Source: a bacterium (lineage in GTDB: Bacteria; Vulcanimicrobiota; Vulcanimicrobiia; Vulcanimicrobiales; Vulcanimicrobiaceae). Taken from it: DNA of 60,945 nucleotides. The notes below the pieces were generated by a model that saw only the letters and a program-made list of their open reading frames with translations, made no database searches and was not told the DNA's origin. The translations under genes were made by a program, and so were the position numbers. Location: NCBI GenBank assembly GCA_021778415.1, contig JAJYCL010000016.1, positions 1-60,945 on the forward strand, in the 5' to 3' direction. Every line of letters starts with the position of its first letter. Positions within the stretch are counted from its first letter, which is position 1. Below, one piece after another: positions 24,769 through 27,331 of the stretch.

Positions 24769-26106
24769 ATGGCCACGCTCCTTCGCCGCTTAGGGACACG
24801 CGATGCCGCCCTCATTGTAATGGGTGGCATTATCGGTTCTGGAATTTTCCGCAATCCGTCGGTCGTCGCCAAACTCGTCCATACCGGACCGCTGGTGATG
24901 CTGGCTTGGATCCTTGGTGGCATCATTGCGTTACTCGGTGCATTTCTCTTTGCAGAACTTGCGTCACGCCGGCCCGCAGACGGTGGGCTGTACGCCTATA
25001 TGCGCGACGCCTTTCATCCGTCGCTTGCATTCGCTTATGGATGGACGCTTTTACTTGTCTCACAGTCCGGTGGAGCAGCGGCCGCCGCACAAACGTTTGC
25101 CGGGTATTTTGAGCCTCTTACCGGCTTGCATGTGAACAAAAATCTCCTTGCGGCGATAACCGTTGCCGTGTTCGTTGCCGTGAATTGTCTTGGCGTCAAG
25201 GCCGGATCACGAACACAAAATGCGTTCATGGTAGCAAAGATTCTCGCTATTGTCGGTTTCATCGGCATCGGCTTGTTTGCACCGATGCATGCAAGTGCCT
25301 CAACGCTCATGCACGCCGCACCGCCACCGAACGCGCTTGCAGCAATGGGACTCGCACTTGTTCCGGTTCTCTTTGCCTATAGCGGCTGGCAAACGTCGTC
25401 GTTCATGACTGGGGAATTGCGCGATCCGCAACGCACACTACCGCGTGGAATGATCATCGGTGTCGGTATTGTGATCGGCTTGTATCTTGCGGTCAATGCG
25501 GTTAGCCTTTGGGTGCTGGGACCGAGCGGACTTGCAGCTACCGACACACCGGCTTCGGATATCGCTCGCGCAGTTCTCGGCCCCGTCGGGCAGCGCGCGA
25601 TGGCGATCGTCGTTGCACTTTCCACCCTCGGTTTTCTCGGCAATCAAATACTCACATCGCCACGCGTCTATTTTCAGATGGCGGCCGACGGCGTCTTCTT
25701 TAAGCAACTTGCCTGGATTCACCCAACCACGCGCGTGCCGGTCGTTGCCATCGCCGTGCAAGGCATTGCCGCTCTGCTCATCGCCTTGCTACCCAATTAC
25801 GAACAGATTCTCAACTATGTGACATCGGTTGATTACGTCTTTTTTGGACTTGCTGCCATCGCCTTAATTGTCTTTCGCGTTCGTGACGCGCGCAGCGGCA
25901 ACTCTCCCGGTGGAATAAAAATGCCATTGCATCCCTATTCAACAATTCTCTTCGGAGCCGTTGCTTGGGCAATCGTCGCCGACGTTGCGCTAAAATCGCC
26001 GGGTGATTCCCTTGCCGGGTTAGGAATACTCCTCTCGGCTCTTCCCGTGTATTGGCTGTTCGTTCGCTTCCGCCGTGCGAACGATGTTGCCTCTACGGAA
26101 TCCTGA
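24769..26106 (+). CDS. APC-family amino acid permease
   Basis: 445 residues, about 12 membrane spans. The first span carries the unwound substrate-binding motif GGIIGSGIF, typical of APC transporters, followed by LGGIIALLGAFLFAELASRRPADGG. Likely imports amino acids by proton or exchange coupling; the specificity (LAT-like or ethanolamine/serine-like) cannot be read. Its 3' end overlaps the opposing outer-membrane protein gene by 14 bp. Not obviously tied to the dehydrogenase genes upstream, though transcription could continue from them. Confidence 0.85.
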   Translation: MATLLRRLGTRDAALIVMGGIIGSGIFRNPSVVAKLVHTGPLVMLAWILGGIIALLGAFLFAELASRRPADGGLYAYMRDAFHPSLAFAYGWTLLLVSQSGGAAAAAQTFAGYFEPLTGLHVNKNLLAAITVAVFVAVNCLGVKAGSRTQNAFMVAKILAIVGFIGIGLFAPMHASASTLMHAAPPPNALAAMGLALVPVLFAYSGWQTSSFMTGELRDPQRTLPRGMIIGVGIVIGLYLAVNAVSLWVLGPSGLAATDTPASDIARAVLGPVGQRAMAIVVALSTLGFLGNQILTSPRVYFQMAADGVFFKQLAWIHPTTRVPVVAIAVQGIAALLIALLPNYEQILNYVTSVDYVFFGLAAIALIVFRVRDARSGNSPGGIKMPLHPYSTILFGAVAWAIVADVALKSPGDSLAGLGILLSALPVYWLFVRFRRANDVASTES

Positions 26107-26962
26107 CGCCGAATCCGAGGCCAACGTAGTGAAACTGCTTGCTCGGATCGCCGATGAGCGTATTCCCGAGTTCAGCATCAATTTCGAATCGCGTTCCAAG
26201 TTGTTTTTGAATGCCGTAATCGATAAACGCACGTCCGCCCTGATCGGGCGCAAGTTTCGATGTATAGACGTACTCAGCATACAGTTGCGCATTTCCACGA
26301 AGCGCCGAAGTCACGACGAACGATGGCATCAAGACAGAATATCGTGAACGCATATTGTGTGCATCATAGCCACTTGTCGAGCTGTAAGCGATCGTCGTGG
26401 AAAGCCCGATGGTCGGTGTGACCGAATAGGCCACATCGAGGTTCATCGTCTCCGTCGCACCGCCGGCGGAAAAGCCATTTGTTCCGTTCGGACTCGTATA
26501 GAGGGCATCGAGCGCATAAATAAACTGACCTCGCGGCGTATATTCGAATTTCATGCCAAGGCCGCCATCTTGATAGCCTTGATTCGACGACAGCGCACCG
26601 AGGCCATCGGCGGCAAGCGTCTTGTTGTAATACGGGCCGATGAGATCGAGCTCAAACCGCTTGCTCACTCCGTAACGCACAAAACTTTGCGGATAGGAAA
26701 TCGTGCGTGACCATCGCGTCGTGTTCGCTGCGTTTTCTTGAACCTGGTAGCCCTCTTCAACAACGACTGTTTTCGGAGCAACCGCGCAGGCACTATAGCC
26801 GATTGTTGGGCGGTTCAGAGTGGCAAGCAAACTGCCATCGCCTGCGCACGGGTCCGGTGCAGGCGTCGGCGTTGCTGCCGATGACTTCGGTGCCGGCGAT
26901 GCTAACGCCGGAGTAGCAAAAATGAGCGCGCAGAGGACTAGGAGCAACTGATAGAATTTCAT
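26093..26962 (-). CDS. Outer-membrane beta-barrel protein under M-box control
   Basis: 289 residues from ATG 26962, with a clear signal peptide (YQLLLVLCALIFATPA then LASP). After a Pro/Thr-rich linker the mature part consists of alternating amphipathic strands; the SFVRYGVSKRFELDL segment resembles the MetA/phenol-degradation-type outer-membrane transporter family. Two Cys lie shortly before the first strand. An earlier in-frame ATG (27067) follows a strong AGGAGGTG ribosome site and would add 35 residues before the signal sequence; which start is used is unclear. The gene lies directly behind an M-box riboswitch, so it should be expressed when Mg2+ is low. Substrate, perhaps Mg2+, is inference. 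Confidence 0.75.
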   Translation of the reverse strand: MKFYQLLLVLCALIFATPALASPAPKSSAATPTPAPDPCAGDGSLLATLNRPTIGYSACAVAPKTVVVEEGYQVQENAANTTRWSRTISYPQSFVRYGVSKRFELDLIGPYYNKTLAADGLGALSSNQGYQDGGLGMKFEYTPRGQFIYALDALYTSPNGTNGFSAGGATETMNLDVAYSVTPTIGLSTTIAYSSTSGYDAHNMRSRYSVLMPSFVVTSALRGNAQLYAEYVYTSKLAPDQGGRAFIDYGIQKQLGTRFEIDAELGNTLIGDPSKQFHYVGLGFGVRIP

Positions 26963-27101
26963 GTTCTTCTCACAGAATTTGGGCGAGTAAATGCGACGGA
27001 ACACTCCGATAGAGACATTTTTATGTTTCGTCGTCGGCGACTGATTCGTACTTGGTCCATCGTCCATAGCTCTTTTCCACCTCCTCTCGTGTGACGAAAA
27101 C

Positions 27102-27130
27102 AAAAAACTGTCACGGCATTCCCGCGACAG
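27102..27130 (-). terminator. M-box expression-platform terminator
   Basis: On the minus strand, CTGTCGCGG (27130-27122) pairs with CCGTGACAG (27116-27108), one mismatch, and is followed by six T (27107-27102). It lies 8 bases after the aptamer, as expected for a transcription-terminating riboswitch. Confidence 0.88.
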
Positions 27131-27138
27131 TCAAAGAA

Positions 27139-27235
27139 CCTCGATCTTGATTCGGCGGTGCCTGGTAACCCATTGGGGTCTCTCGACCTTTCTGGGCAGC
27201 GGCGTATCATCGCACGGACGCCTCGCCTAACGAGG
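27139..27235 (-). promoter_or_regulatory. M-box (ykoK) magnesium riboswitch aptamer
   Basis: Reading the minus strand, the P1 arm CCTCG (27235-27231) pairs with CGAGG ending at 27139. Between them the conserved M-box core is present almost letter for letter: GTTAGGCGAGGC, ATACGCCGCTGCCCAGAAA, GGTCGAGAGACC and CCAATGGGT. I compared these from memory with the B. subtilis ykoK leader. Mg2+ binding stabilises P1 and lets the downstream terminator form, lowering expression. The aptamer is on the short side, with a reduced 3' arm. A TTGACA -35 candidate lies upstream, but no convincing -10 was found. Confidence 0.93.
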
Positions 27236-27331
27236 AATCCAAAGTCATCATACCTTTGCCTGTCAAGCGTAAGAACACCCTCGAAACACTCACGTTTGCG
27301 GCTTCTGGAGCCGATGGTATAGAGCGTGAGC

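Follow-up and report, generated by a model that had tools for sequence, protein, structure and literature searches.

The M-box (the ykoK leader, RF00380) is known to precede mgtE, corA, mgtA and NRAMP-related genes, mgtE-nramp operons among them (PMC4072509), and an NRMT protein transports Mg2+ (PMC8806188). The pe20 operon of Mycobacterium tuberculosis, which is linked to Mg2+ uptake, is under the control of an M-box, as is a small upstream ORF (PMC12810186). A literature search, with most subscription journals outside it, gave no report of M-boxes before porins or of an M-box regulon that serves the outer membrane of a diderm, nor of riboswitches in Eremiobacterota; M-box, riboswitch, porin and magnesium were found together only in a general review. 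Mg2+ is usually assumed to pass the diderm outer membrane by general porins, without a control of its own.

The subject here is a minus-strand leader within a 60,945-nt stretch (the window) from an uncultured Eremiobacterota bacterium (Table 1). Like the known M-boxes (PMC4072509), it has the 5′ two thirds of the aptamer with an intrinsic terminator downstream; unlike them, it has neither the 3′ third nor the antiterminator, and its target is an outer-membrane barrel. We read it, with a probability of about 0.72, as an M-box leader that has decayed in front of the gene for an outer-membrane channel; most likely, the switch has broken down and what remains before the barrel gene is a fixed attenuator.

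Table 1. Features of the leader and barrel gene in the window.
Feature	Position	Strand	Evidence
Promoter-like block: TTGACA (27266-27261) and TATGAT (27252-27247), 8 nt apart	27247-27266	-	sequence; alignment
5′ part of M-box aptamer (model positions 1 to ~97)	27146-27241	-	RF00380 scores; identity to intact M-boxes up to 93%
Deletion junction ATCGAGGTTCTTT	27133-27145	-	alignment with G095, G029, G010 and the genome's own NRAMP-type leader
Intrinsic terminator: 11-bp stem (27132-27106) and U run TTTTTTGTTTT	27102-27132	-	sequence; folding
Shine-Dalgarno-like GAGGAGG of small upstream ORF	27080-27086	-	sequence; conserved in relatives
Start of conserved small upstream ORF (MDDGPS...)	26963-27067	-	translation; alignment with relatives
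Outer-membrane barrel gene, 289 aa	26093-26962	-	homologues; AF2 model; PDB matches
Signal peptide of barrel gene	about 26962-26900	-	homologues; protein start MKFYQLLLVLCALIFATPALA

A first-pass annotation of this DNA had placed an M-box core at 27235-27139(-), followed by a terminator at 27130-27102(-), and proposed a search with RF00380. That search matched 27241-27048(-) to the full-length model at 40.0 bits, with E values of 2.6e-7 over the 551 bases searched and 2.9e-7 over the whole genome. The claim of M-box homology thus stands, while that of a complete M-box does not: the score lies under the gathering cut-off of 44 bits, leaving the M-box absent from the list of a whole-window Rfam scan at that threshold, and the 3′ third is missing. 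When the sequence was cut after the core and a 3′-truncated match was allowed, the element scored 56.2 bits (E 4.9e-12, model positions 1-109), so that its 3′ third costs it about 16 bits. By DNA search, the 5′ 95 nt of the aptamer are 79-93% identical to M-boxes in 63 of the 99 family genomes; most of these matches end exactly at 27146, just after CGAATCAAG, and none among the 99 genomes runs past it. The consensus of the P1 3′ strand does not occur anywhere in the window with up to three mismatches allowed. The full-length cmscan alignment puts that strand past the terminator, a placement that was rejected because the alignment there is weak and lowers the score.

An ordinary attenuator before a barrel gene, resembling an M-box by chance and with no M-box ancestry, would explain a full-length score under the Rfam cut-off, but neither the genome-wide and 3′-truncated E values, nor identity of up to 93% over 95 nt to true M-boxes, nor a promoter, terminator and upstream ORF in common with them. 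The DNA matches to relatives' M-boxes exclude chance similarity, and we give this explanation practically no weight.

Aligned to intact leaders, the window retains the TTGACA/TATGAT block, the 5′ 95 nt of the aptamer, the terminator, GAGGAGG and the upstream-ORF start ATGGACGATGG, while about 125 nt (the aptamer 3′ third and a spacer) are absent between CAAG and TTCTTTGACTG. The 5′ core with its P4/P5 hairpin domain (GAGAGAC..CCAA..GGG) is retained, as seen from the 3′-truncated match and the invariant blocks of the alignment; the P1-closing 3′ strand, the P2 3′ strand and P6 are absent from the element by model alignment, consensus search and leader alignment. These comparisons identify the promoter block, 5′ 95 nt, terminator and upstream-ORF start as homologous to the intact M-box leaders of related Eremiobacterota and, judged by sequence, the window element as an incomplete M-box whose sensor lacks the 3′ third. 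The same genome has two intact M-boxes, of 138.7 bits before an NRAMP gene and 123 bits before an MgtE gene. A chimera with the genome's own NRAMP-type M-box was considered and rejected, since the two copies differ all through the aptamer and terminator.

The promoter-like block is common to the M-box leaders of relatives, and in five genomes (G033, G087, G083, G023, G095) the DNA matches begin there. TTGACA lies only 7-8 nt upstream of a TATGAT-like hexamer in many M-box promoters, including those of the window (27266-27247(-)), L061, L115, L118 and L002, and 16 nt upstream of it in those of L001 and L044. A distance of 7-8 nt between hexamers is not the usual sigma-70 spacing.

Past the terminator, most relatives' leaders that do not precede mgtE carry the MDDGPS... 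reading frame as a separate small ORF of about 20-35 codons. The window copy lacks a stop codon and reads on in frame, over 35 codons, into the barrel gene. The shared ATGGACGATGG had raised the idea of an NRAMP N-terminus fused to the barrel, which was dropped given the separate small ORF of the relatives. Conservation of this ORF is confined to its first residues, and for that reason the segment might be an RNA element as well. There is a likeness here to the M. tuberculosis pe20 M-box (PMC12810186), which also has genes for outer-membrane passage and a conserved small upstream ORF past the aptamer, the likeness of the ORFs being one of position; pe20 is under translational control and Rho and serves PE/PPE proteins, whereas here, in an unrelated phylum, the leader has an intrinsic terminator and the genes encode beta-barrels. 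The MDDGPS... ORF has a strong Shine-Dalgarno sequence and lies about 230-310 nt past the M-box core in L161, L134, L144, L115 and others.

In many relatives' leaders, a GCGAGGA segment of the terminator is complementary to UCCUCG of the 5′ P1 strand, a strand that hardly varies among leaders. In a fold test, the terminator hairpin was forbidden, and the terminator nucleotides paired with the first 26 nt of the leader were counted together with the energy cost. At least nine such contacts formed in 42 of 51 relatives' leaders (21 genera), versus 32% for shuffled terminators, and the median antiterminator cost for relatives' leaders was 0.5 kcal/mol in this thermodynamic folding, which leaves out Mg2+, tertiary contacts and kinetics. 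The two predicted states of intact leaders would then be nearly balanced, as expected of a switch. At high Mg2+, the aptamer would fold, P1 would form and the terminator would stop transcription; at low Mg2+, the UCCUCG of the 5′ P1 strand would instead pair with the GCGAGGA of the terminator and the operon would be transcribed, which would raise Mg2+ entry.

The terminator of the first-pass annotation was found in the window as a strong one, a stem with a U run, missing the GCGAGGA segment that is present in most relatives' terminators. The window leader made 0 antiterminator contacts at a cost of 9.7 kcal/mol, a cost exceeded in one of the 51 relatives' leaders, so that by this test it has no P1-dependent antiterminator/terminator platform, versus 42 of 51 relatives. 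Mg2+ control at the window is therefore doubtful, since both the 3′ third of the sensor and the antiterminator are lost. Under the preferred reading, of a decayed switch, the terminator would form at any Mg2+ level, and read-through, or a promoter that escaped notice, would supply the barrel at a low constant level. With the upstream-ORF start and terminator still recognisable, the leader may keep some function.

Two explanations would leave the window with a working sensor. The deletion could be an assembly fault that hides a complete, working M-box, so that the arrangement first pictured would be right, as it is in G095, whose M-box-barrel arrangement is intact. The genome is a draft of 61 contigs, and the window's terminator and upstream ORF are retained. 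However, the junction shows no repeat, one deletion does not explain the loss of GCGAGGA, and decayed or cut M-boxes are found elsewhere in the lineage, so that we consider this unlikely; in particular, the GCGAGGA segment was lost from the terminator in a further change of its own, which argues that the decay is real. Alternatively, the shortened RNA might still sense Mg2+ or something else, as a mini-aptamer in which a CCUCG/CGAGG P1 stub and the intact P4-P5 domain tune the terminator in a new way. CCUCG (27235-27231) can indeed pair with CGAGG (27143-27139) at the junction, and the 5′ two thirds are well conserved, but P2, P6 and most of P1 are absent, the terminator has no competitor in the fold and the form is seen in no second genome; this appears more improbable still than an assembly fault. 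Decay of the switch to a fixed attenuator remains the reading that we prefer.

The barrel gene probably starts at the ATG at 26962 rather than at the upstream TTG at 27103, because its homologues begin at the signal peptide. These homologues occur in 34 of 60 related genomes. Structure prediction, as the annotation had proposed, supports its claim of a downstream barrel protein: the AlphaFold2 model (28 sequences) has a pLDDT of 87 and a pTM of 0.79 and is a predicted 12-strand barrel, with FapF (Z 24.1), the COG4313 channel 4rl8 (Z 23.8) and KdgM (Z 20.5) as the best solved-structure matches. The predicted fold is like that of the COG4313, FapF and KdgM-type 12-strand barrels (Z 24.1 to 20.3), while the protein is only about 10-13% identical to them and has no Pfam match over its 289 aa. 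With a signal peptide and, in the model, a closed antiparallel barrel, it is very probably an outer-membrane channel. The next gene, at 24769-26106(+), is an amino-acid permease convergent with the barrel gene, and the gene order at the locus places no Mg2+ transporter gene 3′ of the leader.

The gene neighbourhoods of about 100 M-boxes in related genomes were surveyed, with genes labelled by similarity. Relatives carry full M-boxes before mgtE-nramp and nramp genes like those described (PMC4072509); unlike those, many M-boxes in Eremiobacterota head operons with outer-membrane barrels. The first recognised gene at the 102 Eremiobacterota loci counted, which are not independent since several genera were sampled many times, was MgtE (31), NRAMP1 (33), NRAMP2 (13), a ~620-aa exported protein (16), an OprB porin (2), the window barrel family (1) or none (6). 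An outer-membrane barrel was thus the first recognised gene at 19 of the 102 and occurred in the gene run headed by the M-box at 32, in 14 genera. Three barrel families are involved: the OprB type (identified by PF04966, E 5e-28), the 12-strand family and a large family without a Pfam match. The last, the ~620-aa exported family, is predicted to be a large outer-membrane barrel, as its model (pLDDT 79, pTM 0.80) resembles Occ porins and TonB-dependent receptors (Z ~13-16). Its gene is present in 41 of the 99 family genomes and has a copy directly 3′ of an M-box in 23 of these 41; by a crude estimate, chance would give 0.04 for all copies. Examples are L143:2754-4652(-), L171:634-2676(+) and L183:683-2563(+), often in M-box operons with NRAMP genes.

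An NRAMP-type transporter gene is also present in 23 of the 32 runs with a barrel, so the annotation's phrase 'not a Mg2+ transporter' suits the window locus and not these relatives. The assignment of NRMT (PMC8806188) requires DxxG in helix 1 and TxxA/T in helix 6, not DxxN and A/CxxM. In the relatives' M-box operons, NRAMP1 has DNDVGG in most copies and the helix 6 motif in few by the pattern used, and NRAMP2 has DNDAGA with TTVAPWQ or TTIAPWQ. This second subgroup (helix 1 DNDAGA, helix 6 TTVAPWQ) is found at L105:534-2264(+), L161, L162 and L118, and an outer-membrane barrel gene often follows it in M-box operons.

Searching relatives for the pairing seen in the window gave two cases in which the barrel family follows an intact M-box on the same strand, with full-length RF00380 matches over the cut-off: G095 (135.2 bits, the barrel alone) and G010 (122 bits, in the order NRAMP2-barrel). 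There was no M-box at 18 other homologue loci, and only 2 of 15 named loci had one, so the M-box was rejected as a general partner of this family. M-box control of an outer-membrane barrel, as first proposed for the window, is well supported in the lineage and doubtful at the window locus itself.

The recurrent link of an M-box with an inner-membrane NRAMP-type transporter and an outer-membrane barrel suggests that the lineage tunes Mg2+ entry at its outer membrane, and would open regulated Mg2+ entry across the outer membrane to direct test; passage of Mg2+ through the barrels would be part of this picture. More broadly, we put at even odds the proposal that a single RNA sensor governs Mg2+ entry across both membranes in Eremiobacterota, with M-box operons pairing the three barrel families with NRAMP-type Mg2+ transporters, so that outer-membrane Mg2+ permeability in a diderm would be riboswitch-regulated, with the link decaying in the window. 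This would be a counterpart, built on beta-barrels, of the PE/PPE case in mycobacteria, and the window copy would illustrate how such a switch breaks, losing part of its sensor and its antiterminator while keeping the terminator.

We also note some peculiar M-boxes elsewhere in the lineage: (i) An orphan 5′ fragment at L065:5660-5740 (G026:C5) is intergenic, with no transporter after it on its strand, and looks like a relic. (ii) A cut M-box (L124/L098, G068:C65:3795-3958) has an aptamer that stops at CGAATCA, joined to the 3′ arm of a terminator; it precedes genes for a ~620-aa barrel and an NRAMP protein, with a contig end close by. (iii) Degenerate M-boxes of 33-45 bits occur in three species of one genus, at L066:5271-5397 (G019:C11), G090:C89:5764-5883 and G091:C84:12279-12395, of which that in G019 precedes MgtE.
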